From: Leuconostocaceae bacterium ESL0958
GTDB lineage: Bacteria > Bacillota > Bacilli > Lactobacillales > Lactobacillaceae
Assembly: GCA_029433265.1 (NCBI GenBank)
Contig: JAQTHT010000002.1
Location: forward strand, 62,001-126,000
DNA length: 64,000 bases
Reading direction: 5' to 3'
Below the pieces are notes generated by a model. The model ran no database searches. It was not told where the DNA came from and was given only the letters and a program-made list of their open reading frames with translations. Below, piece after piece: positions 1,103-23,211 of the stretch (position 1 is the stretch's first letter; each line of letters opens with the position of its first letter). Both the position numbers and the translations under genes were made by a program.

Positions 1103-1150
1103 TCAAGAACTCCCTTTAACTTCTTATCCTGTTTAATAGCAAACAGTTTA

Positions 1151-1179
1151 ATTTTAGACATTTAAATATTAAATTGCAA
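1151..1179 (-). promoter_or_regulatory. Promoter of the left GH70 gene
   Basis: On the minus strand TTGCAA (1174-1179) and TAAAAT (1151-1156) are separated by 17 bases, about 50 bases upstream of the ATG at 1102. The fit to the sigma-A consensus is good. Confidence 0.6.
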
Positions 1180-1195
1180 TATAACTTTAAAAATT

Positions 1196-1234
1196 AAGAA
1201 AACAAAAGGACCGCAAAATGTATTGCAGTCCTTT
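1196..1234 (-). terminator. Terminator of the branching sucrase gene
   Basis: Arms AAAGGAC and GTCCTTT, extended by GCAA and TTGC, form a hairpin at 1205-1234 followed on the minus strand by a T-rich run. It lies just past the stop codon at 1239. Confidence 0.75.
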
Positions 1235-1238
1235 AATA

Positions 1239-4200: not shown

Positions 4201-6452
4201 TCGGAATTCCCTTCATCAGCAGCAGTCATAGCGCCTTTACCAAAACGTACACTTTTCAAAATACCGCTTTGATCATCAACGGACATCGTTTGCCCGCCAG
4301 CAACATAAGACTTCCGAGCATTCATTAAGGAACTAATAGCATCGTAATAAATACTTTTATTAGCCATGTACTGTCCATCGTCTTGATACATATCCCCATA
4401 ATAAATACGCGGAACAGTTCCTTTATTGGTCAGCATCAACGCATAAGCTGCGGGTAAATTATAACTATTGTATTGCTTATTGGAAGAACGTTGGTCTTCA
4501 TAATAGGCTTTCAATCCTGTTTTTAACTGCTCATTGGTGAAGTTAGTCCAGTCAGCGCCAGTTAAATCAGAAATTGCCTTACCAACGTTTTCCTGAATAC
4601 CCTTATCGTGTGCATGGATAATAGCGTAATTTGGGATTCCTTCATCCTTTGAATAGTTGGAATGGTCTGCAATTACTTGGTTACTGTCAATATCTTTAAT
4701 TAAGTTAGCTAAAGATTCATTCTTACCAGAAGCATTCACCAAAGAGGTCCTTGCCAATTCTCTAAAGTTTGATTCAATCAACGCTTCTTGATTATAAACA
4801 GTTGTACCAGCATCAACACCTGCTTCAACCAAAGACAAATGATTGTTGGCTGTCCGTTCATTACTTGTTAAATTAAAGGCCTGACGTAAGTAATCATAAG
4901 ACCGCTGCAGTGCATCGTTATGGATGAAATCCACCGCATCAATTCGAACACTATCAAAGTTGGCATTATTAACAGCACCGTTTGTCGTAATAGAGCCAAA
5001 ATTGGTTAAGTAGTAAAGCCAATTTAAATCCTCTGCCTGCACAGCAGGGTTTTGGTTGTCAACATCATTGGCAAGAAGAAAATCAAATGCATTTCCTGGC
5101 TGGCGATAGTTTGAATTTGTGGTAGGAGTTACGACGCTATTCCCATACTTTAAATAGCCTCCTTGGAACCAAGCATCCCCCTGCCATGGTGATTCTGAGT
5201 CTGCATTCCAAATAGATTGTTGGCGAACAAAACCTGATTTACCATCCGCACCGTATAATAAGTTGTTTAACCAAGCCGTACTACCTTCAGCCTTGATTCT
5301 TTTTTCAATTTCGATTTGTGCTTGAAAAGCAGCTGCATTCAAAGCCGTTTGGTCAGAAAAAATACTATATTGAATAGCGTTGGATAACAATCCATTTTCT
5401 TGCATTAACTTCAAGTAGTTCACTTGAACATTCTTGCTAGGCCACCAATTCATAATAAATGGGCGGTACTCCCCTTCGTTAGAAGGACGCCAATTAGTAC
5501 CATTATCCAAGATGTATTTTGGACGATAAGTAGTATCAGCTGTTAAAAAACCATCCACGGTATTTGTGTAATCTGAACTATTGATACTGTTAACAGCATT
5601 TTTTTGACTAACTTCCGTGGAAGGTGTTGTTTCAGTGTTACTAAAAAGATACTGTCCTTCACCATTATTATTAAAATAATAAGTAGCGCCATTTGTTACG
5701 ACTTGTTTTCCCTTCGCCTGCTCACCGGTTGAAGGATCATAATAGTTCAATTTACCATTATTATTGATAAGTCCGCGAAGCGTCGTAGTGTTATCAGCAT
5801 TTCCTTGATTATGATTGGTCGTACTATCAGTTCCCTGAGCATGATCAGTCGTTGTATCCGCTCCCTGAACATGATCAATGGTGCCAATTAATCGTCCATT
5901 ACCAGCATCAAAGTAGTAATTCTTGCCATCAATGTCAACAGATGACCCTTTCACTTGATTACCTGATTCAGTATCAAAGTACAGAATCTGTCCATCAACT
6001 GATGCTAAACCTTTTACAAGTTGACCGTTAGCTTGGTGGTATTGCCAAGTGTTTGAATCACCATTGGTTCCAAAGCTACCGCCAGTAAAAGATGGAATCA
6101 ATTTCCCTTGGCCACTTCCTGCGTCAAAAGAATAAAATTCGCCATCAATACTTAAAATTTGACCCTTAATTTGAAGTCCATCGGCCAAACGGAAATAACG
6201 ATATTGGCCTGCAGAATCTTTAAAAAGTCCCTTAACCGGTTGATTATCAACTGTATAATGCCATGTTGATCCGCCATCATTAGAACCATACTGTCCATTA
6301 CTAGACAGCGTTGGCACATTAGTACTATCTGCACTGGCGACCTTGAGCTCACTAAGACCAAAAACAGAAGCCCCAAAAACAAGCGCAGCTACCCAAACTT
6401 TACCAGCTTTATAGAGCTTTTTTCTTTTTATGATTTGTCTATCAACTTTCAT
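1239..6452 (-). CDS. GH70 branching sucrase (alpha-1,2 or alpha-1,3 type)
   Basis: A secreted 1737-residue enzyme. Residues 1-41 are a KxYKxGKxW signal peptide ([10 protein letters not shown]). Residues about 50-280 hold YG-type glucan-binding repeats. The circularly permuted GH70 domain spans about 300-1170. Residues about 1228-1427 are an Ala/Lys/Gln/Glu-rich helical linker, and about 1440-1737 carry three ~66-residue surface-binding repeats. Seen motifs: [11 protein letters not shown] with predicted nucleophile D505, LVEAGVDAG with acid/base E543, [10 protein letters not shown] with D616, and motif [10 protein letters not shown] (985 on). From family knowledge, FIHND, EAG without the usual aromatic after Glu, and HAHDKG match the branching catalytic domain of DSR-E (GBD-CD2) and related BRS enzymes, not dextransucrases (VDNVDAD, EAW/EDW, RAHDSE). 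I infer transfer of single glucosyl units from sucrose onto dextran, probably made by the neighbouring GH70. Linkage type is unresolved. Ribosome site AAGGAAG. Confidence 0.9.
1242..2080 (-). repeat. Three C-terminal surface-binding repeats of the branching sucrase
   Basis: Three units of about 66 residues, each running from a [17 protein letters not shown] start through [19 protein letters not shown], AWGMxYYTD and GRAVQG to an [10 protein letters not shown] end. They lie roughly at 2075-1825, 1824-1571 and 1510-1242. The same unit recurs in the SGNH protein (21207-23126) and the GH25 protein (23212-25059). The aromatic spacing resembles choline- or glucan-binding YG repeats. The ligand is unknown. 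Confidence 0.85.
2165..2772 (-). repeat. Ala/Lys/Gln/Glu-rich coding repeat (helical linker)
   Basis: About 200 codons built from near-identical 15-residue steps of the type [15 protein letters not shown]. The DNA is visibly repetitive, with gctgcttcatctgcagctt-like units. The residues predict one long charged helix or coiled coil separating catalytic and binding domains. Such tracts expand and contract easily by slippage or recombination. Confidence 0.85.
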
Positions 6453-6753: not shown

Positions 6754-7650
6754 TTATAATTTTTCATCCGCAAACTCAATTACAGGATTGAACGTTTTAC
6801 CAGCCTTCATTCCTTTTTTCATGACGGCTAACTTTTCGGCTTTACGATCCGTTTTTGCTAGTTTAATTTGCCAATATTCTGCTAAGGTGCGCAAACGAGC
6901 CCGGTTCTTTCGATACCAATCACGCTTGCGGATATAGTAGCCCTTGTTTCGGTAAGAATAGAAGTAACGGGGTGTCCGATTGGGCCCGTCATTCAACAGA
7001 CTGGATCCGACATTGGCGCCCATTTTATGAGTAACTTTCGCTGCGGGCACAAAGTAACCCGGCGCTACGCGACCAGCTCGTTCTGTATACTCAATATCAT
7101 CACCCCAGATAAAGAAATCAGTAATAGGCAGGCCGATTTGACGGACAATTTCGCGCTTCATCAGCAACGAAACAAAGGTCGCATTTTGCAATTGCACGGG
7201 TTCTGTTTGATCTTCTGGAATCGTTTTTAAGCGGTTCATGGGTGCTGGTTGATTCATTTTGGCCCGATGACCATCCGTCCAGCGGACGTCGGAAGCCAGA
7301 AAACCAAAGTTGTTTTCCTTTTCTGCAAAAGCGAGCAGGTTTTGGAGCGTATCAGGATGGGTCACCGTGTCATCATCCATGACCCAGACGAAGTCGTCGT
7401 CTGTTTTTTCCATGAAATAACGAATGCCCTTATTGAAACCACCGGCACCCCCAAGATTTTCCTCTAACCGTAGGTAATCAATTTGATCGCCCAAAGAGGT
7501 TAAATATGTTTGGGTATCTTCTTCGCTCGCATTATCGACCACGATAATGTGATTTACTTTGACGATCTGTTGCTGCAAACTTTGGATCACTTCCTTTAGT
7601 AAATCCAAACGATTGTAGGTCACAATGACAGCTGATACAGTTTTATTCAT
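6754..7650 (-). CDS. GT2 glycosyltransferase, galactofuranosyl/rhamnosyltransferase-like
   Basis: A 298-residue soluble GT-A enzyme. It starts AVIVTYNRLDLLKEVIQSL, then has IIVVDNASED-type donor binding, the loop ENLGGAGGFNKG and the metal-binding acidic motif VMDDDT. GGAGGFNxG with DDD is characteristic of the GlfT/rhamnosyl group of GT2. With a UDP-galactopyranose mutase gene 6 kb upstream, I infer that it transfers galactofuranose to the surface polysaccharide at the inner membrane face. It has its own promoter and sits behind the terminator of the preceding gene, so it is transcribed apart from the main glycan operon. Rhamnose or another sugar donor remains possible. Confidence 0.8.
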   Translation of the reverse strand: MNKTVSAVIVTYNRLDLLKEVIQSLQQQIVKVNHIIVVDNASEEDTQTYLTSLGDQIDYLRLEENLGGAGGFNKGIRYFMEKTDDDFVWVMDDDTVTHPDTLQNLLAFAEKENNFGFLASDVRWTDGHRAKMNQPAPMNRLKTIPEDQTEPVQLQNATFVSLLMKREIVRQIGLPITDFFIWGDDIEYTERAGRVAPGYFVPAAKVTHKMGANVGSSLLNDGPNRTPRYFYSYRNKGYYIRKRDWYRKNRARLRTLAEYWQIKLAKTDRKAEKLAVMKKGMKAGKTFNPVIEFADEKL

Positions 7651-7681
7651 AACTCATCCTTTATTTAAATAATCCAATAAG

Positions 7682-7710
7682 ATTATAGCATAGCCGCCTC
7701 TTAACAATAA
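7682..7710 (-). promoter_or_regulatory. Promoter of the GT2 gene
   Basis: Minus strand: TTATTG (7705-7710), 17 bases, then a perfect TATAAT (7682-7687) preceded by TGC (extended -10). It lies between the terminator of the upstream gene and the GT2 ATG. Confidence 0.7.
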
Positions 7711-7747
7711 ATTAAAAAAGCAACAACTTCAGCAATGAAGTTGTTGC
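7711..7747 (-). terminator. Terminator of the glycan operon
   Basis: Perfect 11-bp stem GCAACAACTTC (7720-7730) with GAAGTTGTTGC (7737-7747), followed on the minus strand by TTTTTT. It sits directly after the PTPS-related membrane protein gene. Confidence 0.9.
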
Positions 7748-7758
7748 TCCTAACCTAG

Positions 7759-9498
7759 TTAACGTTTTCGATACCAAGCAACAAAGAGAATTGATGCAAC
7801 GACAGCCAGCGATGATAGAACAATCGCGGTCATTTCGAGGGCAGAAGCTTTCCTCTTAACCGTAATCTGGTTACTATCTGCTGTCAAAGTTACGACCATC
7901 TGTGCTTCTTTGTTCAAGTGATACTTTAACGAATGGCCACGTTGATCGGTCAAGACATACTTTGCCCGATAGCCGACCATTGGTAAAGTCAGTTCTCCCT
8001 TTTCAAAGCGACCACGGTAGACAAAGCCATTAGGCTGAGACCGCCAGTCCACAGACATCGCTTGATCATGCTGGACAACCTGATGGTTCAATAAGCTTTG
8101 CGTAGCCACTGTTTTCTTTGGCAGATAATCAAAAGCCCCATAAGTCGTCCAATACTGGGCCAAGTTATCAATCGTATTGGAATGAACAAACCAAGTCCCA
8201 ACTGGATTCATTAAAACAGGTCGTGCAGCCGTTGGTTGATAATCTTGATTTTGAGCAGTTTGTCGAAGGTTATTCAACCAGTACGACCGCGTACCGGTGA
8301 AAAGCATCAATACCGCTATGATCATAGCTAACCCCTGGAAAAAGTGCTGCTGCCCTTTTGTCCGACTCACAACCCGCATTTCATAAACAAAGAGAATCGT
8401 TAGTAGAAAGATAGGAATGGCAAAAACACGGTGTGGGAACTGAATTACACTGAGTGACGTTCGATAAAGATAATACCAAAGATAATACGTGCCACTAATG
8501 ACCATGGTGACCGAAATGAGTAACCAGGCTTGCCATTTTTTACCAAGCTGAAAGAAGAGAAAGATACCCAAAATTAAGGCCATGATGGCCACCAAGCCAA
8601 TGGAATCGGAATGAAATTCATAGGCTTCTTCCCAAATATCAATGACTTTGGGTGCTGCCCAGGTACTTAACTGCTGGTCAGCATGTGGCGTGAACAAGGT
8701 GTTCGTCACACTGTTGACTAAGAATGGCAGTAAGAAAGCCAGCGAGAGAATGAACGACCAAAGGCCGGCAATCATTAGGCTGATAAAAATTTTCAGCCGC
8801 TCCTTTTTTAGCACAAGTAGCAACACCGTGTAACCGGCGGCAAAGGCAGCGATAATGGCAAATGACAAAACATGAGAATAGATGATGCCCGTAAAGCCAA
8901 TCACTAATGGCCAAATACTTGGCCACGCTTCATTAAAATGAAAACGCTGATCTTGATCAGTCCTGCTTAATTGCGTTAAACGATAAAAACCAAGCACAAC
9001 CAGTGGCATAAAACTCATCGCCCAAGCCTGCCCCAAGAGCCATTGCTGAATGGATTCTGTAACCAGGGGCGTTGCGGTCATATAGAGGAAACCAACCACA
9101 TTGGCTTCCATAACAGTTAGCCCCATTTTACGGGCAGCGAAGGACGTCAACCCGTAGGCCAACATGAACTGCAAGAAGAGCAATACATAGATGGCTGCAA
9201 CCTTCGGTAAGACAAAGAAAAGCAGTGCGCCCACATAGGCTGGTAAAGGCGGATACATGGCAATCACATTGGAGCCAATTTGATTAGCCGAATAGGTTGA
9301 AATAAATGGGAAGAACTGACCGTGCGCGATGTTTTCATGAAACTCGAGCATGCGATTGTAGTGAAATTGTAAATCGGCGCCAAAATAAAGCTTATTGCCG
9401 TGACCAACCATCCACAGCAAAGCGGCCATTGTTAGCGCTGCTAACAGATAACCTCCCCAAATTTGATACCAATTTTGTCTTTGATGATTATTTTTCAT
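7759..9498 (-). CDS. PTPS-related polytopic membrane protein, probable GT-C glycosyltransferase
   Basis: A 579-residue protein with about ten or more hydrophobic segments and a C-terminal extracytoplasmic domain of about 150 residues ending in a final membrane helix and YRKR. The N-terminus has an acidic first-loop signature (GADLQFHYNRMLEFHENIAHG) followed by PPLPAYVGA, as in the family annotated '6-pyruvoyl-tetrahydropterin synthase related', which is unrelated to pterin synthesis and resembles YfhO/GT-C transferases. Such proteins are thought to move a sugar from a polyprenyl-phosphate carrier to an outer acceptor. It overlaps the gene upstream by 11 bases, so it is translationally coupled to it and is last in the operon. 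Substrate is not determinable from sequence. Confidence 0.65.
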   Translation of the reverse strand: MKNNHQRQNWYQIWGGYLLAALTMAALLWMVGHGNKLYFGADLQFHYNRMLEFHENIAHGQFFPFISTYSANQIGSNVIAMYPPLPAYVGALLFFVLPKVAAIYVLLFLQFMLAYGLTSFAARKMGLTVMEANVVGFLYMTATPLVTESIQQWLLGQAWAMSFMPLVVLGFYRLTQLSRTDQDQRFHFNEAWPSIWPLVIGFTGIIYSHVLSFAIIAAFAAGYTVLLLVLKKERLKIFISLMIAGLWSFILSLAFLLPFLVNSVTNTLFTPHADQQLSTWAAPKVIDIWEEAYEFHSDSIGLVAIMALILGIFLFFQLGKKWQAWLLISVTMVISGTYYLWYYLYRTSLSVIQFPHRVFAIPIFLLTILFVYEMRVVSRTKGQQHFFQGLAMIIAVLMLFTGTRSYWLNNLRQTAQNQDYQPTAARPVLMNPVGTWFVHSNTIDNLAQYWTTYGAFDYLPKKTVATQSLLNHQVVQHDQAMSVDWRSQPNGFVYRGRFEKGELTLPMVGYRAKYVLTDQRGHSLKYHLNKEAQMVVTLTADSNQITVKRKASALEMTAIVLSSLAVVASILFVAWYRKR

Positions 9499-11083
9499 AG
9501 TTCCCTAACATTGCTGTCTTACTATCCTGCAGTTTGCCTGTGCGATACCAGTGGTAACATTGACAAAACTTTTGAAAGCCAATTCCTGCCAACAAAAGCA
9601 AAACCGGTAGGAATTGAATTAAATAACGTGACCGACCGCCCTCGAACAGTAACAAGAAGGCAAAAAAGCCAATTGCCGTCATCTTTAAAAAGAGCGTCAA
9701 CATGGACTGATCAAAAACAGAAAAGAGCATGAACACGATAATCATTACCCATAATACCTGTTGCACCAATCTAAAACTAAATCGATCTTCCCGTGCAATT
9801 CCGTCAGGATCGACAAACAACTTTCTTTGTGGCATTTGATTTAAGTAATGATTCTGATGATCAAACACCTTAAGGTAATAGATCTCATGCCCCCAACCGA
9901 ACGTACCATCCGCAGAATTTTTAATCTGCTTATGAACTAAAAAGCGTTGATAACCCATCCAACGGCCCTGTGCTTCAAACCGTTCCTTAATGCGATTAAT
10001 GGCATCCTGATTTCGTTCCTTCGGGTCCTTAATAGCAATCGACCGTAGCCGATCAACGCCAGAAAAATCCCCATCACCAGTAATGCCCATAGCCATAAAA
10101 TGGGTCATCGGAAACGCCTCTGAAGGATCCACTTTCACAATGCCATTGTGATAGTAAAGATAATTTTTAGTTAATGGCTGCGTCAGCACAAAGGTTCCTA
10201 ATACAACCCCTAACAACAAAAAAACACCTGCTAGTTTTCTTTTTTTATACTGCCCACTTAACAGCAATACCAGCATAACTGCGATGACTGCCAGGAAAAT
10301 GATAATTAACGAAGGCTTGATGAAATAGGCAACCGTTAGTTGGCAACCAATCAACAGTGCAATGCTAATTTTCGTTACCAACCGATGTGGCTTTATCAAA
10401 GCCAAAAAGGACGTTAACAGTAAGGTACAAAGGAAAAAGGAAACCGTATCGGAATAAGGAATCACAAAAAATGGCACCAAGGTAAAAATCACCAACGTCA
10501 TGACTAAGGTTGCACTAGCAACCTTTGGCTGATTGATTTTTTTAGCGAAACGCCAAATCATCCAAGTGGCCCCATCGACCAATACCGTATTGGCAATATT
10601 CAAGGCAAACATGAATGTTTTAAAGTCAGGTCGGCCCAAGCCATCATAATAAATGCGCTCCAATTTTAAGAGCAACAAATTGTTGGGACTATTAGACCCA
10701 TAATCAGGCCAGGGCCAGCCAGGATGGGCCGTATAAGCTTGCTTGGCGAGAAACATCCAATCCCAAGTACTGGTACCAGAAAGTAACCAGATACAAGAAA
10801 GTTGCCAAAGCAACAACAGGAAAAAGATAACAATCCAAAATTTTGAGCTAGTGGCCCAGTTAGACAAGTAGGTCTTACTTTTTTGCCAGTAGCCTGGCAT
10901 AAAATGGCGGACAGCCAGTAGCAGTAGGACTAAAACCAGTAAGTAATCGACGAACTTCACAAAATGATTGCTAACGCCTTGAATATTTTCAGGGATGAGC
11001 GCAATCGCACCCATTAAGGTAATTACAAGTAAAATAGATAACACAACATTAATCAGTCGATTCGTGAATCTATAAAAAGCCAT
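9488..11083 (-). CDS. GT-C-like integral membrane protein (TIGR03766-type), copy 1
   Basis: A 531-residue polytopic protein with about 12 hydrophobic helices. The first large loop carries TSTWDWMFLAKQAY and NSPNNLLLLKLERIYY, and a conserved mid-region has MAMGITGDGDFSG and ADGTFGWGHEIYYLK. It is a clear paralogue of the product of 12120-13652, sharing SPNNLLLLKLE, YYHNG, MGxTGDG, FLxHKQ and DGTFGWG. I recall the family as TIGR03766, putative GT-C glycosyltransferases of Firmicutes. The start ATG follows the stop of the GT2 gene after 2 bases. Together with that GT2 it probably forms a flip-and-transfer pathway adding a sugar on the outside. Confidence 0.65.
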   Translation of the reverse strand: MAFYRFTNRLINVVLSILLVITLMGAIALIPENIQGVSNHFVKFVDYLLVLVLLLLAVRHFMPGYWQKSKTYLSNWATSSKFWIVIFFLLLLWQLSCIWLLSGTSTWDWMFLAKQAYTAHPGWPWPDYGSNSPNNLLLLKLERIYYDGLGRPDFKTFMFALNIANTVLVDGATWMIWRFAKKINQPKVASATLVMTLVIFTLVPFFVIPYSDTVSFFLCTLLLTSFLALIKPHRLVTKISIALLIGCQLTVAYFIKPSLIIIFLAVIAVMLVLLLSGQYKKRKLAGVFLLLGVVLGTFVLTQPLTKNYLYYHNGIVKVDPSEAFPMTHFMAMGITGDGDFSGVDRLRSIAIKDPKERNQDAINRIKERFEAQGRWMGYQRFLVHKQIKNSADGTFGWGHEIYYLKVFDHQNHYLNQMPQRKLFVDPDGIAREDRFSFRLVQQVLWVMIIVFMLFSVFDQSMLTLFLKMTAIGFFAFLLLFEGGRSRYLIQFLPVLLLLAGIGFQKFCQCYHWYRTGKLQDSKTAMLGNYEK

Positions 11084-11085
11084 GC

Positions 11086-12027
11086 CTACTTTTCTTCCTT
11101 TGCAATATAAATAGGTCGTTTTTTAGTTTCCATAAAGATCGCTGCAATATAACGACCGATAATGCCCAGCGACAACATTTGAATACCACCAATGAAGAGA
11201 ATAATTGTCACCATGGAAGGCCAGCCCGCCACAGCCGTATTCGAGACCAGTGCTCGAATGACGATAAAAAGCCCCGCTAAGATTGATGTTCCAAAAGACA
11301 GTAACCCAAGCACCGTCACAATCATGAGCGGTACGGTCGAAAAGGAAACAATGCCTTCAATCGCATATTTAGCCAAAGCCCAAAACGACCAGGAAGTATT
11401 GCCAGCAACCCGTTCTCTATTTTCAAAGGGAATATATTTTGTTTTGAAGCCAACCCAAGTGAAAATGCCCTTTGAAAATCGTTGATTTTCGGATAGCGAC
11501 AAAATGGCATCCACCATTTGGCGGGACATCACTCGATAGTCACGGGCACCATCTACTAGATGTGTTTGGGAGACCTTATTCATCCATTTATAAAATTGAG
11601 CAGAGAACCAAGAACGCAGTGGGGCCTCCCCTTTACGATCAGCCCGTCTGGTGCCCACTGCGTCAAATGCTCCGGACTGCACATCCGCTAACATGCTTGG
11701 CAGTAACTCTGGTGGATCTTGTAAATCAACATCCATCACGGCGACATAATCGCCGTCTGCTTTCTCTAAACCAGCATAGAGTCCAGCTTCTTTTCCAAAA
11801 TTTCTCGAAAAAGAAACATAGTGAACCGCCGAATCGAACTGGGCATACTGTCGTAAGGTAGTCAGCGTGCCATCCGTTGAGCCATCATCAATAAAGAAAA
11901 AATTAATATGGGCATTCACCTGCCCCTTAATGTTCTGAATTGCATCATAAAAAAGTGGAATGGTTGCTTCTTCATTATGAACGGGCACCACTAATGAGAG
12001 TGTCTTTTGATTTTCTGCCTGTGCCAT
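11086..12027 (-). CDS. Polyprenyl-phosphate glycosyltransferase (GT2, GtrB/CsbB-like)
   Basis: A 313-residue enzyme. The N-terminal GT-A domain has LSLVVPVHNEEATIPLFYDAI, FFIDDGSTDGTL, VSFSRNFGKEAGLYAGLE and the metal site VMDVDLQDPPELLP, with GARDYRVMSR further on. Two C-terminal membrane helices lie at about 230-300. This layout is that of the enzymes that load a sugar from a nucleotide donor onto undecaprenyl phosphate on the cytoplasmic side. It sits between two paralogous GT-C-like proteins, which suggests it feeds one or both. Ribosome site GGAGGAAAG. A weak stem-loop precedes it (see 12028-12119). Confidence 0.85.
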   Translation of the reverse strand: MAQAENQKTLSLVVPVHNEEATIPLFYDAIQNIKGQVNAHINFFFIDDGSTDGTLTTLRQYAQFDSAVHYVSFSRNFGKEAGLYAGLEKADGDYVAVMDVDLQDPPELLPSMLADVQSGAFDAVGTRRADRKGEAPLRSWFSAQFYKWMNKVSQTHLVDGARDYRVMSRQMVDAILSLSENQRFSKGIFTWVGFKTKYIPFENRERVAGNTSWSFWALAKYAIEGIVSFSTVPLMIVTVLGLLSFGTSILAGLFIVIRALVSNTAVAGWPSMVTIILFIGGIQMLSLGIIGRYIAAIFMETKKRPIYIAKEEK

Positions 12028-12119
12028 TACGGGCTTTCCTCCTGTTGATCATTCATTATGTACGCCTCCAGCAAAAACCAATCACTATCGGTTTAATGCG
12101 CAGGAGACAGCTTTATTTT
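12028..12119 (-). other. Intergenic spacer with weak stem-loop inside the glycan operon
   Basis: On the minus strand the arms AAACCGAT and ATTGGTTT form an 8-bp stem with loop AGTG followed by a short T run. It could be a weak attenuator or partial terminator between copy 2 and the GT2 gene. A TACATAAT -10-like box follows without a convincing -35. Confidence 0.4.
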
Positions 12120-13652
12120 TCAATTTATTATATCACGTCTGCGCCAACTTACTTTTCGGCGAAGTTGCTGGTAACCGATACCTGCCAGCAAAAAAATGAC
12201 AGGTAAAGCTTGAATCAAATAGCGCGTTCGGCCGCCCTCAAACAGTAACAAAAAGAGAAAAAAGCCAATCGCTGTTAACTTTAATAACAGTACGCTTTTT
12301 CTGTTATCAAAGAGACTAAACAAGGTGAGCGTTAACGTCAGCAGCCAAATAATCTGCTGGATTAAACGGAAATTGAATTTTAGGGCGGTTGCAATGCCAG
12401 CGTCATTCAAATAGAAATTTTGTACCATCTTTTTTAATCCATGGCTGTCATCCACTTTCACCAGCAAATAAGTTCCTTCCACTCCCCAGCCAAACGTGCC
12501 GTCTGCCGTATTCATTACTTGCTTATGGAACAAGAACTTTTGGTAGCCAAAAAGGCCCCCTAATTCTTGATACCGTGTTTTCATCAGATCAATTGAAGCA
12601 CGATTACGCTCGTCTGGATTCACGATGTTTTTAGATTCAATATCATCGTTGACATTATAACCGCCATCACCTGTCATGCCCATGGCTGCAAAGTGAGTCA
12701 GCGGCAGGGAACGATGTTGTTCGATTTTGATGACCCCATTGTGGTAATACAGATAGTTTTTAAGCCCTAAGAAGCCGACTACAAAGACGACTAGACAACA
12801 GAGACCAGCTTTCAATAGGTTACGCCAACTATTTTGGCTAACAATCAACGGCGCCACCAGGATTGTCGCAATCAACAAAACCATAATCGAGGGTTTCAAA
12901 AAATACCCAACAATTAATTCCATTGCAAAAAACATGGCGTACACATATCGTTTCTTATTCCCCAAGTTTTCTCGCAAGGGAACCATGGTTGCTAACATTA
13001 GCGCAACCACAAAGAAACTAAGAGTATCAGAATAGGGAATGACAAAAAAAGGAACGACTAAAAAAGAAAAGATCACTAGAAGCGTCACAACAACGGTCCC
13101 GCGAATGGCCAAGATCTTGTTTGCAACAAAATAGATGAACAAGGCAGCGACATCGATCAACACAATATTCAATGCATCAAGCCAAATAATAAAGTTTTCA
13201 TAGCCCGGGCTGCCAAGTAAATGCCAATAAATATTTTCCAATTTTAGTAACAATAAGTTGTTCGGACTATAAGAAAAGTAGGCTGGCCAGTCAGGTCGGA
13301 TAGCATTTTGGGTAATAGCTGCCCAATCCCAGCCGGCCGTGCCATGTAGAGCATACAAGCAGAAAAATTGCCACAAGACCAAGAAAAGCAACGCTAGCAT
13401 TAAGAATACCCAACGGTATCGATGTAGGCTGCGCTGATAGAAAACCCGCAATCGCTGCCAAACCATGGCTCGTTTTTTTGCGCCAAGTAAAAAGATGACG
13501 AAAAGAAGAAGAAGGAACAGATTCAATACTTTAACAAAGCTATTCGTCAGGCCATTCACAATTGGCGGTAATAAAGAAACAGCTCCAACCGTACTAACCA
13601 CTAATAAAATAGCTAATAATAAGTTCGTCAAGTCCGTTAGTAATCGTTTCAT
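12120..13652 (-). CDS. GT-C-like integral membrane protein (TIGR03766-type), copy 2
   Basis: A polytopic protein of about 510 residues, paralogous to the product of 9488-11083 over its whole length (GWDWAAITQNAI, SYSPNNLLLLKLENIYW, YYHNGVIK, MGMTGDGGY, FLFHKQ, ADGTFGWG). The chosen start is the ATG at 13652 (MKRLLTDL), which has GGAGG 10 bases upstream. An upstream in-frame ATG at 13676 lacks one. The reaction is inferred: transfer of lipid-linked sugar at the outer face. The two copies differ enough that the duplication is not recent and may give two acceptor or donor specificities. Confidence 0.65.
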   Translation of the reverse strand: MKRLLTDLTNLLLAILLVVSTVGAVSLLPPIVNGLTNSFVKVLNLFLLLLFVIFLLGAKKRAMVWQRLRVFYQRSLHRYRWVFLMLALLFLVLWQFFCLYALHGTAGWDWAAITQNAIRPDWPAYFSYSPNNLLLLKLENIYWHLLGSPGYENFIIWLDALNIVLIDVAALFIYFVANKILAIRGTVVVTLLVIFSFLVVPFFVIPYSDTLSFFVVALMLATMVPLRENLGNKKRYVYAMFFAMELIVGYFLKPSIMVLLIATILVAPLIVSQNSWRNLLKAGLCCLVVFVVGFLGLKNYLYYHNGVIKIEQHRSLPLTHFAAMGMTGDGGYNVNDDIESKNIVNPDERNRASIDLMKTRYQELGGLFGYQKFLFHKQVMNTADGTFGWGVEGTYLLVKVDDSHGLKKMVQNFYLNDAGIATALKFNFRLIQQIIWLLTLTLTLFSLFDNRKSVLLLKLTAIGFFLFLLLFEGGRTRYLIQALPVIFLLAGIGYQQLRRKVSWRRRDIIN

Positions 13653-13844
13653 TATCAAGATACCTCCATTATGCACTCGGAAGCATACTTTTCGTAAAGC
13701 AGGTCATATTGCAAAAAGTTTGCTAAATACAGTGGAACCATCAGCAAAAGCAGTGCTTAAGCCTTGCTGGCACAATCACTTTTGACCGCACCCACCACCT
13801 TCCAACTGGCTCGTTTTTATAATCGACTGATTTTAAATTATGTA

Positions 13845-13868: not shown

Positions 13869-15059
13869 TTATTGCACGTCATCATGGGCAAAGTTAAAGT
13901 CATCATCAATGCCAAATTCTTGACGAACCGTGTTCAAAGCGTCGTTGAAGACCTGGTCCATGTCGAAGTAGCGGTACTTGCCCAAACGACCACCGAACAT
14001 CACTTCTGGTGCATTTTCACGCGCTTCCTTGACGTACTTCTTATAGAGCGCCGTGTTTTCATCGTTGTTAATCGGATAATAAGCTTCCTTCGTCCGATCC
14101 CAGTCCTGTGGGTATTCCCGGGTAATGATGGTCTTTCCCTCATCTCCCAGGCCATCAAAGTGCCGCCATTCCATTTGACGGGTGAACGGCGTTTCGCCAT
14201 CCGTATAGTTAATCACGGCATTGCCCTGGTAGTTTTCCGTATCCAAGGTTTCGTGCTCGAAACGCAGGGAACGGTATTCCAATTCACCGTGCTTGTAGTC
14301 GAAGAACTGGTCAATCATCCCGGTATAAAGCACGCGGGGGAATTCTGCCAAGAAGGTTTCTTTGTGGTCAAAGAAATCCGTGTCGGTCATAACATCAATC
14401 AAGCCGTTAGAACGGGCCACCATGTTTTCAAAGATTTGTGTATAACCGCCGACTGGGATGCCCTGATAGCGGTGGTTAAAGTAGTTGTTATCAAAGATAA
14501 AGCGAACAGGCAGGCGCTTAATGATAAAGGCTGGTAGCTCCGTTGCCTTGCGGCCCCACTGCTTTTCCGTATAGCCCTTAATCAAAGCTTGATAAATGTC
14601 CGTCCCAATCAAGGAGATGGCCTGTTCTTCCAAGTTTCTTGGTTCGCGGTCCCCTAGTTCCTGCAAAGCAGCTTGCTTTTGTTCTTCAATCTTGGCGTGC
14701 GCTTCTTCGGGCGTCTTAGTCCCCCACATCTGATAGAAAGTATTCATGTTAAAGGGCAAGTTATAGAGCTTACCATTATAGTTGGCAACCACCTGGTTTT
14801 GGAAGTTGTTAAATTCCGCAAACTGGTTAATGTAGTCCCATACTTCCTTGTTGTCCGTGTGGAAAATGTGGGCACCAAAATCGTGAACCGTAATGCCGTT
14901 TTCACTGTGGGTATGGGTATTCCCACCGATAAAGGACCGCTTTTCGACAACCAAGGACTTCTTGCCACGCTTAGCTGCTTCATAGGCAAAGGTCATACCA
15001 AAGGGCCCCGCCCCCACGATTAAGTAGTCATACTGCTTAGTGTTAAATTGATTTGTCAT
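13869..15059 (-). CDS. glf: UDP-galactopyranose mutase
   Basis: A 396-residue flavoenzyme converting UDP-galactopyranose to UDP-galactofuranose. The N-terminus has the FAD-binding fold DYLIVGAGPFGMTFAYEAAKRG. Next come ekRSFIGGNTHT-type flavin contacts, GAHIFHTDNKEVWDYI, and the substrate-region motifs YNLPFNMNTFYQMWG, GYTEKQWGR and RLPVRF, with the C-terminal GRLGKYRYFDMDQV. Length is normal for the family. It overlaps the DUF4422 gene by one base (TAATG), so the two are coupled. Its presence implies galactofuranose in the surface polymer and supplies the donor for a Galf transferase, plausibly the GT2 at 6754-7650. Confidence 0.97.
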   Translation of the reverse strand: MTNQFNTKQYDYLIVGAGPFGMTFAYEAAKRGKKSLVVEKRSFIGGNTHTHSENGITVHDFGAHIFHTDNKEVWDYINQFAEFNNFQNQVVANYNGKLYNLPFNMNTFYQMWGTKTPEEAHAKIEEQKQAALQELGDREPRNLEEQAISLIGTDIYQALIKGYTEKQWGRKATELPAFIIKRLPVRFIFDNNYFNHRYQGIPVGGYTQIFENMVARSNGLIDVMTDTDFFDHKETFLAEFPRVLYTGMIDQFFDYKHGELEYRSLRFEHETLDTENYQGNAVINYTDGETPFTRQMEWRHFDGLGDEGKTIITREYPQDWDRTKEAYYPINNDENTALYKKYVKEARENAPEVMFGGRLGKYRYFDMDQVFNDALNTVRQEFGIDDDFNFAHDDVQ

Positions 15060-15826
15060 TAGAAATGTACCTTCTTTTTGCTATTGGGTAAAAACTTACG
15101 CTTCAAAAACTGACTGCCCTTATCTAACCAGTTCGTTTTTTCCAAAGAAACAACCGGCAAATCATGGGCAGCATAACCTCTGGTCGCTAACCAGGTGTCC
15201 ATTAACCTTTCAGAGAGAAAGCCGAAAACGCGACTGTCCTGGCCATGTAATGTGGATAAGTCGACCTGTTCTTCGACCTTATCCAACACAGCGAAAACAA
15301 AGGACGCATAGTCCTCAAAAGCGGCCCGCTTCATGATAAACATGTTAAACAAGTGCGCCTTCGTGGACTGCTCCATCTTCGTAAAGGCCGGATAAAACTC
15401 CGGGAAATCTTGGGCAATCACGTTGGCCATGATGTCATAAGGTGCTTTGGCATGGGCATGAAGATAATGATCCCGCTGATTTTCAATGAAATAGTTGCGC
15501 TGCTTAGGCAGCAAGACATCGTAGTCCGTCAAAAGTTGTCGGACGGCGGCTTCATCAATCCGATCGGCCACATCATGGGATTTTTTCAATCCCAGATAGC
15601 GCCGGTAATGGGCCAGGCCGACAATATCAGACTGGTCATGTTGCCAGATCCAATACAGTGCCGTTAATTCATTGAAGTTCGGATTTTTGGCGGAAATATT
15701 ATGACCAACATCATCCCGCTGATAATCGGCCGGCACCTGATCCCGCAGTGCGGCCCCCACCATAATGGGCTGGTAAAAGCCATCGTTGGGAATGGGATAT
15801 GTTTTGTGCGTGGCAACGTAAATCAT
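15059..15826 (-). CDS. DUF4422-family glycosyltransferase
   Basis: A 255-residue protein with the DUF4422 hallmarks: an initial MIYVATHKTYPIPNDGFYQPI, NFNELTALYWIW, VGLAHYRRYLG and HGQDSRVFGFLSERL, followed by a basic C-terminus. The family occurs in exo- and capsular-polysaccharide loci and is regarded as cytoplasmic glycosyltransferases. It overlaps the polymerase gene by 4 bases (ATGA) and glf by one base, so it is part of the tightly packed operon. Sugar specificity cannot be read from the sequence. Given the glf neighbour, galactofuranosyl transfer is possible. Confidence 0.85.
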   Translation of the reverse strand: MIYVATHKTYPIPNDGFYQPIMVGAALRDQVPADYQRDDVGHNISAKNPNFNELTALYWIWQHDQSDIVGLAHYRRYLGLKKSHDVADRIDEAAVRQLLTDYDVLLPKQRNYFIENQRDHYLHAHAKAPYDIMANVIAQDFPEFYPAFTKMEQSTKAHLFNMFIMKRAAFEDYASFVFAVLDKVEEQVDLSTLHGQDSRVFGFLSERLMDTWLATRGYAAHDLPVVSLEKTNWLDKGSQFLKRKFLPNSKKKVHF

Positions 15827-17220
15827 GGGGCCAACTCCTTTTCAACACGTTCGAGATGCTTCCGATAGAAGAAAAACATCAATAGGTAAGGCCAGAGAAA
15901 GACTTGGATGACGAAGAAAGAGGAAACAAAGGCCAGTATAATCATCACGATAAAGGCAACATGCATAGCCTTGTCCCAAGTATAGTCTGAACTTGGTTCC
16001 TGTGACAGTGTCAGCCGGTAGTTAGACAAATAAGACCGTGCCACTAACTTAAATAAGAGGTAGAGGGCTGGAATCATCACTACAAGGCCAAAGGAGGCAA
16101 ACCAACCAAAGAAATCGGACAAAATTGGATAGCCGAATTGGGCATAGACTTCCTTATACTCGAAATTATTGGTCGTAAAGGCTGGTACATTTTCCAAAAT
16201 AAAGAAGGAAGTGAAACCGTAGCCAACCCCCAAAAAGGGATGCGCCAAGAAAGTTAAGACCAAGGCAATCGATCCGCCTAACCGGTTATCCGTCCCCTGT
16301 TTGGCAAAGAGAATCTGATTAAAGATTTGATGGACAAAGCCCACCTTAAAATAGGCAATCCCCAATAACAACAAGCCGACTACCATCATCGCTGTTAATG
16401 ATTGACGAAGACGACCTTTCGCAAAGGCAATCCAGATGACATAGGCAACAACGGCCGTTAAGAGCCCCGTCGTGGTTTTTGCTAAAAGCAAAATAGCGAT
16501 GATTGACAAAGCAAAGATGGTATTGACCCAGCTATCCGCCCGCTTACTCTTGGTAAAGCGCCAGAATTTTTGTCCAGCCGCTGTGAGTCCCACTAGTAGT
16601 GGTAAGTAGACCACGCCCAAGAGATTGGCCAAGAAAGCCGCTTCCGGTTCGAAGCCGTTGACTCGATTTTGGGACGTGACGTAAGAGCCATTCTGATAAA
16701 AGTCATAGTGGACACTCGTATGCATGCGCCAATGTCGTTCAAATAGACGGCCAATGAAATCATCATAACCTGCAAAGCCGTGAACCCCTAGGGTATAGGC
16801 TAACTGTGGCAGCACAACCAGCAGCAAGTACACAGCCAGCCCAATCAGACCAGCCTTCACAAACTTTTTTTCATCTACTTCTGATAGTACAGTGACCTGA
16901 ATAACGGCCCAAGCCACATAGACCGTGATGGTCCAGGTGAGTAAAAAAATCAGTGAGTGTAAGAGACCGGAAGTTAGTTTGGTATCCCCTGTTTTCTGAT
17001 AAGACAAAAGCATGGCCAATAACTGCATCAGCCAAAAGAAGCCCGTCAGCAGAATGGCTTTCCCAGAAGGGATGATGGCCCCCAGCCGTTCGGGCTTGCG
17101 ATAGACTTGCAGCAGAATAATGGTCAAAAAAACCGGGAAGGCCAGCATAGCGGTCGTTTCCGCGATGGCTCCCGAATAGTTTTTTGAAAATAATGAAATT
17201 GGTAGAAGAAAATTAACCAT
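15823..17220 (-). CDS. wzy: Wzy-like polysaccharide polymerase
   Basis: A polytopic protein of about 465 residues with roughly 12 membrane helices and one large extracytoplasmic loop (about residues 150-200, HGFAGYDDFIGRLFERHWRMH). GFEPEAAFLANLLG and the late FLGVGYGFTSFFI are typical of O-antigen/EPS polymerases, which join lipid-linked repeat units at the outer face. Assignment rests on topology, motifs and the complete Wzx/Wzy gene set around it. I chose the ATG at 17220. A GTG nine bases upstream (17229) is an alternative. Confidence 0.8.
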   Translation of the reverse strand: MVNFLLPISLFSKNYSGAIAETTAMLAFPVFLTIILLQVYRKPERLGAIIPSGKAILLTGFFWLMQLLAMLLSYQKTGDTKLTSGLLHSLIFLLTWTITVYVAWAVIQVTVLSEVDEKKFVKAGLIGLAVYLLLVVLPQLAYTLGVHGFAGYDDFIGRLFERHWRMHTSVHYDFYQNGSYVTSQNRVNGFEPEAAFLANLLGVVYLPLLVGLTAAGQKFWRFTKSKRADSWVNTIFALSIIAILLLAKTTTGLLTAVVAYVIWIAFAKGRLRQSLTAMMVVGLLLLGIAYFKVGFVHQIFNQILFAKQGTDNRLGGSIALVLTFLAHPFLGVGYGFTSFFILENVPAFTTNNFEYKEVYAQFGYPILSDFFGWFASFGLVVMIPALYLLFKLVARSYLSNYRLTLSQEPSSDYTWDKAMHVAFIVMIILAFVSSFFVIQVFLWPYLLMFFFYRKHLERVEKELAP

Positions 17221-17231
17221 GCATCCCACTT

Positions 17232-17855
17232 TTAGTTCTGCTTTTTAGCTTGTTGGTAGTTAGCAACAATACCTGTGAGCAATACGACAAAGAGGCCAAT
17301 GACTAGTCCTGCAAAGGCACCGAAGAGCGTCAACTTCTTTGTGCTCTTGCCTCCTAGGTGCGTCACATCGGAAGCAGTGGCCTTCGACAATACGTTCGGC
17401 TGGCCCATATCAGGATAGAGCCGCTGTCCCTCCTTGGCAAAGGCTTCTGCATAAGCATTGACCAATGTCTTCGAACGGTAAGTAGAGCCTGCTGAAGCCT
17501 TAAAGTCCAACATCACCGTATCAGTTGGATTGGAAACTGTAACGGCCGTATTGATCTCGTCTTTGGTCATCTTGAAGGGCAAAGCGGACTTGACGGTCGT
17601 CAAGACTGCATCATCCTTGGCGATCTTTTCATAAGTGGGCATCAAGGCCTTATCCGCCAAGAACCGGGAATTTGGATCTTTCACATCTGTATTATTTTTG
17701 GCCATCAACACGGAACGGTTGGCTGAAAAATCAGTCGTCGTTTTTGCATGTTTAGCACCAACGAAACCGAGACCAGCAAAAACCACCATCAACAAGACAG
17801 TCAGCCAGGCGTAATGCCAAAACCGTTTTAACAAATCCGTAAAAGAAAATTCCAT
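17232..17855 (-). CDS. CpsC/Wzz-like chain-length and assembly protein
   Basis: A 207-residue protein with an N-terminal helix (about 15-33), an extracytoplasmic middle domain, and a second helix near the C-terminus (about 172-195) followed by a short basic tail (QQAKKQN). This is the two-helix layout of the chain-length/kinase-adaptor family of Gram-positive capsule loci. It would set polymer length and coordinate export. No CpsD-type tyrosine kinase or CpsB phosphatase is encoded in the surrounding 20 kb. The C-terminal tail is short, so control by a partner kinase is not evident. Confidence 0.75.
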   Translation of the reverse strand: MEFSFTDLLKRFWHYAWLTVLLMVVFAGLGFVGAKHAKTTTDFSANRSVLMAKNNTDVKDPNSRFLADKALMPTYEKIAKDDAVLTTVKSALPFKMTKDEINTAVTVSNPTDTVMLDFKASAGSTYRSKTLVNAYAEAFAKEGQRLYPDMGQPNVLSKATASDVTHLGGKSTKKLTLFGAFAGLVIGLFVVLLTGIVANYQQAKKQN

Positions 17856-17879
17856 GATATTATTTACTCCTTCATCCCT

Positions 17880-18512
17880 TTAAAAGGCGCCATCGCCTTT
17901 AAAAATGGCGATAATCGTTTGAAACATAATCTTAAAATCTAAGCCCAAGTTTGCTTGTTGCACATAGGACAGCTCAATCTCCGCCCGTTCTGGATAGCCA
18001 ATGTTCGAACGACCAGAAGCCTGCCACAGACCAAAAACGCCTGGCTTCACCGATAGTAGCTGATCAATTCGTTCTTGGCTACCGTATTCCACGAGTTCCC
18101 GGCGAACCACGGGCCTGGGCCCAATGATGGACATATTCCCAATCAGGGTGTTCCAAAACTGAGGCAATTCATCAAGAGAGGTCTTCCGCAGGAAAGCCCC
18201 GATCTTAGTGATGCGTGGGTCTTCCTTAGTGGGTAATTTGTAGCCATTGGCCACGAATTTTTCATACAGGGCTTGATCTGCTTTTAACATCTCATCCGCC
18301 CCATCCACCATGGTTTGAAATTTGTAGATTTTAAAGTCTCGATTATATTGACCAACCCGTACTTGTGCATAAAAGACATGGGACGTCCCTTTATGCATTT
18401 TAATTAACAGGGCAACAATCAAAAATACTGGCGACAGAATTACTAGTGCTGCTAAAGAAACGCTAATGTCTAATAGGCGTTTCGGAAGCAAATAAAGCAA
18501 TCGTCTTCTCAT
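17880..18512 (-). CDS. Undecaprenyl-phosphate sugar phosphotransferase (priming transferase)
   Basis: A 210-residue bacterial sugar transferase. One N-terminal membrane helix (about 13-35) is followed by the catalytic core FYAQVRVGQYNRDFKIYKFQTM, DPRITKIGAFLRKTSLDELPQFWN and IGNMSIIGPRPVVRRELVEYG. KFRTM-like and DELPQ-GDMSIVGPRP-like motifs mark the enzymes that place the first sugar-1-phosphate (often Gal or Glc) on undecaprenyl phosphate at the inner membrane face. It is preceded by an extended -10 promoter and GGAGG, so it may begin the core glycan transcript. Confidence 0.93.
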   Translation of the reverse strand: MRRRLLYLLPKRLLDISVSLAALVILSPVFLIVALLIKMHKGTSHVFYAQVRVGQYNRDFKIYKFQTMVDGADEMLKADQALYEKFVANGYKLPTKEDPRITKIGAFLRKTSLDELPQFWNTLIGNMSIIGPRPVVRRELVEYGSQERIDQLLSVKPGVFGLWQASGRSNIGYPERAEIELSYVQQANLGLDFKIMFQTIIAIFKGDGAF

Positions 18513-18560
18513 GCGCCAACCTCCGATTTATTAATTTACTGTTGACAGCAGAACAAACTG

Positions 18561-18590
18561 ATTATACCAGACTTTTATTGTGACCGAAAG
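18561..18590 (-). promoter_or_regulatory. Internal promoter before the priming transferase
   Basis: Minus strand: perfect TATAAT (18561-18566) preceded by TGG (extended -10), with only a weak -35 (TTTCGG) 17 bases upstream. It overlaps the end of the flippase gene and would drive the priming transferase and the genes downstream. Confidence 0.5.
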
Positions 18591-20014
18591 CGAGCCAACT
18601 GCTTTAAAATCGGCGCCCTTAGGAGCAAGAGCATGAGTCCATAGACCAGCAAGCCCAGGATGCCTTGCGAAGCGGTGGCCAACATGTTCTTTCCTTGATA
18701 AGAAGCGAGCCAAACCACAGCCCCGTACATAACCGCTGCCGCCAACAGGTAGCGCCAGATTCCAGTAAAGTGAGCCCAAACGGCCATGTCTTTGCGAGTA
18801 ACAAAAAGCTGGTAAGCAATGACGGCAAATTCAGCAATCGTGGTGGCCAAGGCTGCGCCGTTGACGCCCCAGAAATAAATGAAGACAAAGTTGAGAACTA
18901 TATTCAAAACAGCCCCGAAGGTTACGGACCAAGTAAAATCATTCAGGCGTTTTGTGGGAATCAGATACTGGTTCCCAATGACATTGGACCAACCGATAAA
19001 GACGATAATCGGCGTTAACCAAACCAAAGCGGGACCAACATCACCCCAGGAAGGACCCAAAAACCAAATCATGGCGGATGGGCCCACCGCTGCAATACCA
19101 AAGGCTAAGGGAATGGCGATGGCTGACACAAAGTCCATGGAGGCATGCAAAGCCTTCTTCATTTGTTCGTGTTCCCCAGCGGCAAAATGCGCCGACATTC
19201 TGGGCAACATGACCATGCCGACGGAAGTGACCAAGGCCAGGCAGACCTTGATGATCTTATCGGCATTATCATAAACACCCGCAGAGGCCGTCGAACCCGT
19301 CATGAAGGGCAGCATGGTTTTATTTAATTGTAAGTAAATTTGCGTGGCAATCGTCGGCAAGAACATCAAGAAAACAGGCTGCCAGTGCATTTTCAAATCT
19401 AACTTCGCCCACTTTGGCCAGTGGAACTGGCCGATAAGATAAAACCACATCGACAAGTTGCCGAAAACCTGCGATAAGGCCAAGAGTAAGATGTAGGCCC
19501 CAACATCGCTAGGTTTTTTAACGAGCACAAAAATCAACACCGTCATCGAGATTTTGATGAGCATATTCCGCAGAACAGTCTTCTTGAAATCCTCTAGCCC
19601 AATAAAGTACCAGGAAATGTCCAAAATACCAGAAATGACCACCCAAATTTGATACCAGAGAAAGAGCTGGTTATTGGCAATCCGCGTATTAACCGCGCCA
19701 CCGAGATAGATGAAGGCCACGTATAGCAAAAGTGCGACCACGCCTGCAATCGTGTGGATAATCTGGATTTCCCAGAACTTTTTCTGGCGTTCCGCTAGGT
19801 CCTGGTGAACGTAGGCAATTTCCCGAGACCCATAGGTAACAATCCCTAAACTGGCAATCAAGAGGAAGTATGTGGCCAATGAATTCGTCCAGGAAGCAAT
19901 CCCGACGCCGTCCTTCCCCAACACCCGGGCCAGGTAAGGCAGGGTAATGATCGGTGCAATAATATTTAATAGCTGATAAGCAGCATTATAGAGATAATTT
20001 TTTGCAACTTGCAT
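18575..20014 (-). CDS. wzx: Wzx-type polysaccharide flippase
   Basis: A protein of about 479 residues with 12-14 membrane helices. It starts MQVAKNYLYNAAYQLLNIIAPIITLPYLARVLG, with the conserved GxASWTNSLATYF next, as in the polysaccharide biosynthesis (MOP/PST) exporters that flip lipid-linked repeat units. QLNKTMLPFMTGSTASAGVYDNADKI and TSVGMVMLPRMS are typical internal motifs. Start: ATG at 20014, with AGGA 7 bases upstream. The GTG at 20020 is less likely. It lies 36 bases from the acyltransferase gene and is probably cotranscribed with it. Confidence 0.92.
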   Translation of the reverse strand: MQVAKNYLYNAAYQLLNIIAPIITLPYLARVLGKDGVGIASWTNSLATYFLLIASLGIVTYGSREIAYVHQDLAERQKKFWEIQIIHTIAGVVALLLYVAFIYLGGAVNTRIANNQLFLWYQIWVVISGILDISWYFIGLEDFKKTVLRNMLIKISMTVLIFVLVKKPSDVGAYILLLALSQVFGNLSMWFYLIGQFHWPKWAKLDLKMHWQPVFLMFLPTIATQIYLQLNKTMLPFMTGSTASAGVYDNADKIIKVCLALVTSVGMVMLPRMSAHFAAGEHEQMKKALHASMDFVSAIAIPLAFGIAAVGPSAMIWFLGPSWGDVGPALVWLTPIIVFIGWSNVIGNQYLIPTKRLNDFTWSVTFGAVLNIVLNFVFIYFWGVNGAALATTIAEFAVIAYQLFVTRKDMAVWAHFTGIWRYLLAAAVMYGAVVWLASYQGKNMLATASQGILGLLVYGLMLLLLRAPILKQLARFRSQ

Positions 20015-20050
20015 GAACACGTCCTAACTCAATCAGCGCTGACCGCAACA

Positions 20051-23126: not shown

Positions 23127-23161
23127 CACTTTCCTCATTTACGATTACTTCTACAAACATA

Positions 23162-23190
23162 CAAAATAAAAACAGGGATTAATCCCTGTT
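23162..23190 (-). terminator. Terminator of the GH25 gene
   Basis: Perfect palindrome AACAGGGATT/AATCCCTGTT (23171-23190) followed on the minus strand by TTTATTTTGT, just past the GH25 stop codon. Confidence 0.85.
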
Positions 23191-23211
23191 CAATTTACTC
23201 GTTTCGTTGCT

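Follow-up and report, generated by a model that had tools for sequence, protein, structure and literature searches.

Dolichol- and decaprenyl-phosphate sugar pools feed many glycosyltransferases of the GT-C fold. A comparable sharing is proposed in Listeria monocytogenes serovar 4b, where the charging enzyme GttA would make a lipid-linked galactose pool for both GttB, acting on wall teichoic acid (WTA), and GtlB, acting on lipoteichoic acid (LTA) (PMC7155027, PMC8035078), and deletions of gttB and gtlB are described as separating the decoration of the two polymers (PMC7155027). In Streptococcus mutans, pgfS is reported to work with pgfM1 and pgfM2 in an operon that modifies Cnm and WapA (PMC5856776). 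One flippase, CflA, is shared in Lactococcus lactis according to a review (PMC8035078), and the glucan exopolysaccharide (EPS) of Lactobacillus johnsonii needs a GtrB/GtrA-type pair, no GT-C enzyme being named in the available part of that account (PMC7117936). Here we analyze a cassette of four genes that closes a Wzx/Wzy-type EPS operon in a Fructobacillus genome (1.30 Mb, 98.97% complete), located on a 64,000-nucleotide stretch of Leuconostocaceae bacterium ESL0958 (G000:C16:62001-126000, hereafter the window). A check of open reading frames found all four genes on the minus strand at 7759-13652, arranged as an initial annotation had described: a GtrB-type family 2 glycosyltransferase (GT2) lies between two paralogous TIGR03766-like polytopic proteins (TIG-A and TIG-B), ahead of a short YfhO-like polytopic protein.

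That annotation had also described known systems as pairs of one GT2 and one GT-C enzyme, a strict one-to-one rule that we reject since it is contradicted by Listeria 4b GttA and by the streptococcal pgf loci. The best reading of the cassette is one charging enzyme for several outer transferases, for which these systems are precedents. We regard it as fairly probable that the four genes form a multi-component transmembrane glycosylation module built into the EPS operon, with one lipid-sugar pool for three GT-C-type proteins.

The charging enzyme and its polytopic neighbours

The GT2 (11086..12027, minus strand; 313 residues) matches Glycos_transf_2 (PF00535, 6.8e-29), the solved GtrB-type protein sll0501 (1.7e-65 over 302 residues) and ArnC-type enzymes (3e-35), and a crude hydropathy scan gives it about three hydrophobic segments. 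It also scores 303.6 bits against the PgfS model NF047588, below the equivalog cut-off of 500; this score is unspecific, the model being matched in 293 of 295 genomes of the order and its cut-off exceeded in only 28. Because of the sll0501 and ArnC-type matches, together with a PgfS score under the cut-off, its sequence classes the protein as GtrB-type and not as PgfS by the curated rule, and it is predicted to be an undecaprenyl-phosphate sugar synthase, that is, the charging enzyme.

TIG-A (12120..13652, minus strand) and TIG-B (9488..11083, minus strand) score 274.3 and 246.3 bits against TIGR03766, about half the equivalog cut-off of 500, which neither reaches, while an XrtG-linked protein scores 725.8. 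The two are paralogues (395 bits, 41% identity). The most likely start codon of TIG-A is the ATG at 13652, which a GGAGG Shine-Dalgarno sequence precedes, and the end point previously given was therefore right; the mechanically called reading frame starts at a GTG at 13676. In a Pfam scan of six aligned TIG members two matched PMT_2 (best 9.8e-6), and TIG-A itself had no match.

An AlphaFold2 model of TIG-A, built from 11 aligned sequences, reached a predicted local distance difference test score (pLDDT) of 76.1 and a predicted template modelling score of 0.83. Its top match with VIA-align 2 is ArnT with undecaprenyl phosphate (Z 21.5, root-mean-square deviation 3.5, 310 residues); ranks 1 to 45, as read from their titles, are GT-C or GT-C-like down to Z 11.0, oligosaccharyltransferases at Z 13-17 among them, and rank 46 drops to Z 5.8. 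Helical bundles may reach a Z of about 13 by chance with this tool, and the fold assignment therefore depends on how high the first Z is, on the gap after rank 45 and on the uniform make-up of the matches above it. In all 11 aligned TIG sequences Asp117, counted from the GTG start, is invariant; it stands directly after helix 70-110 of the model, inside the ArnT-matched stretch, and a loop Asp is kept in both TIG-A and TIG-B. The proposed catalytic Asp of solved GT-C enzymes is likewise placed after the first transmembrane helix (PMC11127046). The GT-C fold expected by the initial annotation is thus confirmed for TIG-A at the level of a predicted model, and the fold of TIG-B would follow by homology to it. 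Searches of PDB sequences with both membrane families, TIG and YfhO-like, returned chance-level matches only, and no relatives were found in viral contigs.

The pair does not seem to stem from a recent local duplication, a scenario that we rejected on a tree of TIG proteins, which joins each to proteins of other species. TIG-B groups with proteins of F. tropaeoli (G012) and F. ficulneus (G005), to which it is 52% and 51% identical (support 100/99), and TIG-A with a protein of F. papyriferae (G007; 94/86, below the firm-support mark of the tree tool). Their sequences mark them as old paralogues.

The YfhO-like protein (7759..9498, minus strand; 579 residues, low in helix in its C-terminal part) has no Pfam or NCBIfam match at 1e-3 and does not attain the PF09586 gathering score. 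However, a profile built from its family in Fructobacillus (16 proteins) matches a YfhO profile with 97.3% probability in profile-profile comparison, and this value rises to 99.2% upon addition of nine proteins of 529-578 residues from other genera, chosen as weak PF09586 matches. All nine match the profile of the YfhO-like family (1e-44 to 1e-96), and five also the YfhO profile (4e-7 to 3e-11). Control comparisons with Wzx and Wzy gave 0.1-0.4%, and the TIG profile matches neither the YfhO nor the YfhO-like profile (5% and 26%). Eight residues, D42, H46, R49, Y82, P83, H209, Q353 and R357, are invariant in all 16 family members. YfhO is treated as GT-C-type in a review (PMC8035078), and because the protein's own structure model failed, its assignment as a predicted GT-C-type transferase is indirect, through this distant kinship. 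A search of PDB sequences with the genome's full YfhO found none.

Fixed and variable genes in Fructobacillus and beyond

We compared the genes from glf onward in 13 Fructobacillus genomes. In the window, glf (13869..15059, minus strand) encodes UDP-galactopyranose mutase (TIGR00031, 410.5 bits over cut-off), and beyond the cassette lies a gene for a GlfT1-like GT2 in which the crude hydropathy scan shows no membrane helices (6754..7650, minus strand; PF00535, 4.9e-26; NF050113, 96.9 bits with a cut-off of 330). An orthologue of the cassette GT2 is present in all 13 genomes; in 11 it follows glf immediately, and in two (the window genome and G004) a single gene lies between them. Between glf and the GlfT1-like gene, 10 of the 13 carry GT-C-type genes, which over all 13 number none to three per genome and belong to several families. 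Profile searches assign family c3 to the TIG group and families c4 and c5 to the YfhO-like group. The scanned members of c8 and c11 are DUF6020 proteins, which we provisionally count as GT-C-type, and a Pfam scan of other GT-C-type proteins of the genus gave one sub-threshold YfhO match (E 0.1).

Three such genes fill the slot in the window genome (TIG, TIG, YfhO-like) and in F. ficulneus (c3, TIG, c4), and two in G012 (c3, TIG), in G001 and G006 (c4, c3) and in G009 (c3, c4). A single one is found in G002 (YfhO-like), in G007 (TIG, then a second GtrB-like gene) and in G004 (YfhO-like, then a second GtrB-like gene and further membrane proteins). G003 has a c8 gene (DUF6020-related) split into two open frames right after the GT2 (L034:11091-12990), and this slot may be decaying.

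In the window genome, PF00535 retrieves three proteins: the cassette GT2, the GlfT1-like protein and a second GtrB-type GT2 on contig C8, which adjoins a YkcB-like GT-C-type protein with PMT_2 and YkcB_C domains (G000:C8:15405-18564, L036:7405-10564). GT-C-type candidates number five, namely the three in the cassette, the YkcB-like protein and a full YfhO on contig C23, the genome's only PF09586 match, with no GT2 among its neighbours. With two chargers and five candidates, one or both chargers must supply several transferases, except if some candidates draw on other donors or act as non-enzymatic partners, or if a further charger is encoded in the portion that the assembly lacks. It is therefore likely that one charged-lipid pool is shared. 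Distant GT2 matches of the C8 kind (about 30% identity), away from the EPS GT2, occur in all 13 genomes.

A single GtrA (PF04138, 63.5 bits) is encoded among unrelated genes at C11:211217-211570 (L035:8127-8588). It is 62-71% identical to the GtrA type found on the EPS contig of nine of the 12 sister genomes (on other contigs in G002, G003 and G006), and 36-39% identical to a second GtrA type present in seven genomes. The genome thus holds a GtrB-type GT-A enzyme, a GtrA flippase and, in TIG-A, a GT-C partner, the three parts of a GT-A, flippase and GT-C system.

Relatives of TIG-B occur in 151 of 397 genomes of the family and in 29 of 40 genera. Among the 144 non-Fructobacillus genomes with a match, we read the loci of the 40 highest-ranked: 14 have a GtrB-type GT2 (>200 bits) in the stretch; the remaining ones are, for the most part, XrtG loci or loci with neither feature. 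The tree mentioned above holds 55 proteins, those of at least 480 residues and at least 240 bits from the 40 loci plus eight others, shorter or weaker ones being left out. Linkage was scored within 4-5 genes, some loci stopping at contig ends; on this basis 22 rows are GT2-linked, 18 XrtG-linked, three both and 12 neither. Both window proteins fall in a clade of 17 rows (99/98) of which 15 are GT2-linked, two unlinked and none XrtG-linked, and another clade of 18 rows (95/83) is XrtG-linked throughout, with one row also GT2-linked. No XrtG was found in the 13 Fructobacillus genomes, by a search that was positive in three of five other genomes used as control. We consequently rejected TIG-A and TIG-B as part of an XrtG system. 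As a separate observation, the XrtG cluster at L103:7176-11150 (G369: XrtG, TIGR03111, TIGR03766) also encodes, between its two glycosyltransferases, a small protein related to 6-pyruvoyl tetrahydropterin synthase (TIGR03112, 123.3 bits).

Several TIG genes per charger are also met elsewhere. L079:4535-17426 (G178) has four in tandem beside a single divergent GtrB-type GT2, followed by glf and a priming transferase; L081 (G156) is similar, with broken copies; and in L100 the order TIG, TIG, GT2-type, TIG adjoins an XrtG system. To judge from these sequences the arrangement is recurrent and arose partly through separate duplications. We tentatively propose, as a possibility that we hold at somewhat below even chances, a fixed charger with an interchangeable GT-C slot drawn from several families. 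Species would swap transferases that draw on one undecaprenyl-phosphate pool, thereby changing surface decorations and perhaps phage receptors, and the large XrtG-independent TIGR03766-like branch would consist of transferases of this kind.

A proposed common lipid-linked sugar pool and its alternatives

In the proposed mechanism, the cassette GT2 would load a sugar from a nucleotide sugar onto undecaprenyl phosphate at the inner face of the membrane, and the charged lipid would be flipped by the only GtrA-type protein of the genome, whose gene lies on a different contig. At the outer face, TIG-A, TIG-B and the YfhO-like protein would all draw on this one pool and attach the sugar at different sites or to different acceptors, with the EPS of this operon as the most likely target. 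The analysis establishes the family of the GT2, the modelled GT-C fold of TIG-A, the remote kinship with YfhO, the constancy of the GT2 beside varying partners and the gene counts of the genome; the activity, the sugar, the common pool and the acceptor are what we infer. The earlier suggestion that one charging enzyme may serve three transferases is favoured by the position of the GT2 beside three GT-C-type proteins and by the count of two chargers to five candidates, with the fold of the YfhO-like member indirect.

Several observations weigh against this reading. The GtrA gene stands outside the cassette locus, unlike its counterparts on the EPS contig of most sister genomes. Foldseek gives TIG-A no match below 0.001 (best AglB and ArnT, 3.9e-3), and the model of the YfhO-like protein, based on three sequences, reached a pLDDT of 38 only. 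Three of the 13 Fructobacillus genomes (G008, G010 and G011) have no GT-C-type gene directly beside the GT2, with c8, c11 or c4 further along, and the second GtrB-like gene in the loci of G007 and G004 may mean that some partners have their own charger. Finally, the exact four-gene set occurs in one of the 13 genomes, so that its conservation as such is rejected; the linkage predicted by the initial annotation holds in a looser form, as that of the GT2 with varying GT-C-type genes.

Even if the chain of steps is correct, the acceptor could differ from the EPS and be secreted surface proteins, as with pgf for Cnm and WapA, or teichoic acid. The likeness of the GT2 to PgfS, whose operon modifies those two proteins (PMC5856776), would fit such a target, as would the large secreted repeat proteins encoded on either side of the operon and the teichoic acids that serve as acceptors of the Listeria GT-C enzymes (PMC7155027). 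However, the PgfS score is the unspecific one noted above, the cassette lies within an EPS operon here, and the GT2 locus follows glf in 13 of 13 genomes; we find a non-EPS acceptor somewhat unlikely. Alternatively, only one of the three GT-C-type proteins might be the partner of this GT2, with the others using the product of the C8 enzyme or, in the manner of a ligase or an oligosaccharyltransferase, an undecaprenyl-diphosphate-linked glycan. The C8 enzyme itself, the oligosaccharyltransferases among the structural matches of TIG-A and the second GtrB-like gene in the sister loci of G007, G004 and G009 speak for this division. Yet the C8 GT2 has its own adjoining YkcB-like GT-C, the full YfhO on C23 also stands without a neighbouring GT2, so that two chargers are already few, and TIG-A best matches ArnT, a monophosphate-sugar enzyme, at a Z of 21.5 versus at most 17 for oligosaccharyltransferases. 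We therefore think it unlikely.

One or two of the three membrane proteins might also be no enzymes at all, being either acceptor-binding partners of an active GT-C or decaying copies. It is speculated in a review that GT-C enzymes of small size might depend on another protein to bind the acceptor (PMC8035078), and broken TIG or c8 copies are seen in relatives (L081, L105, L118 and L034). In the window, however, all three genes are intact, the loop Asp is kept in both TIG proteins and D42, H46 and R49 are conserved in the YfhO-like one, making this explanation quite improbable. A single pool feeding three outer transferases remains our preferred reading of the cassette.

The surrounding genes follow the order Wzx-like, priming transferase, Wzz-like, Wzy-like, DUF4422, glf, TIG-A, GT2, TIG-B and YfhO-like. 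The five core genes from DUF4422 to Wzx-like (15059..20020, minus strand) were assigned by profile matches, the Wzx-like one by inspection. Along the strand, TIG-A and the GT2 are separated by 92 nucleotides and the GT2 and TIG-B by 2, while TIG-B and the YfhO-like gene overlap by 11 (spacing of -11). A strong terminator-like hairpin of 16 pairs followed by a T run (7716..7751, minus strand; hairpin scan and sequence) comes after the YfhO-like gene and ahead of the GlfT1-like gene. The region has no more promoter-like sites than chance predicts (25 versus 25.8). The GC content at third codon positions is 0.42-0.48 in the cassette and the GlfT1-like gene (window 6754-13676), 0.53-0.59 in the adjoining glf to wzz and 0.59 in addAB. 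The low values are in keeping with exchange, yet the lowest figure, 0.417, belongs to the GT2 that is found throughout the genus.

Window positions 1-6452, immediately downstream of the EPS operon, encode two large secreted repeat proteins, glucansucrase-like by inspection only, the second of which, at 1239-6452, contains a long repeat of the [12 protein letters not shown] type. Upstream of the operon, at 21207-25059, are two secreted proteins of 643 and 615 residues, which share with the large 1239-6452 protein a common C-terminal [16 protein letters not shown] repeat.

Relation to described systems

If the proposed module is real, species can exchange outer transferases, several of which are fed by one charged lipid, and leave the charger untouched; for these inhabitants of flowers, fruit and bees this would be an easy way to diversify their surface. 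It would also give a testable role to a TIGR03766-like branch that carries the misleading database name 'XrtG-associated', and would caution against inferring glycan side groups by a rule of one charger and one transferase. In the available parts of the literature on TIGR03766, XrtG, Fructobacillus EPS gene clusters and GT-C side chains of lactobacilli, we could not find a description of this arrangement.

The GttA/GtcA/GttB and GtlB system of Listeria 4b has the same logic of one GtrB-type charger, one flippase and two outer GT-C enzymes with different acceptors, a likeness drawn from its description and not from sequence. However, the second GT-C enzyme is encoded at another locus there and teichoic acids are the acceptors, whereas in the window the charger stands next to three GT-C-type genes from two superfamilies, inside an EPS operon. 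In the pgfS-M1-E-M2 operon of S. mutans, a single GT2 from the broad family of the cassette enzyme is similarly accompanied by two polytopic proteins. In contrast to the cassette, these partners have about 870-930 residues and fall outside both the TIG profile and the short YfhO-like one, the published operon includes an epimerase, and its target is protein. Eight genomes with high PgfS matches were compared, seven above the cut-off and one below it. In four of them the GT2 is immediately followed by two large membrane proteins, and in the others by one or none; in G442 and G420 both pgf-type partners are YfhO-family proteins.

The XrtG-associated TIGR03766 glycosyltransferase belongs to the same superfamily as TIG-A and TIG-B, from which it differs in that the window proteins reach about half the cut-off, form a separate GT2-linked clade and come from a genus with no XrtG in 13 genomes. 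The CsbB/GtcA/YfhO system of Bacillus and Staphylococcus, as outlined in a review (PMC8035078), shows the same succession of charger, flippase and outer YfhO-type enzyme, and the window protein is distantly akin to YfhO. Unlike that enzyme, it has 579 residues and no PF09586 match, and the genome's full YfhO is encoded separately on C23. What is new with respect to all these systems is the combination of three GT-C-type proteins of two superfamilies with one charger within an EPS operon, a fixed charger accompanied by changing transferases, and a TIGR03766-like branch that is independent of XrtG.

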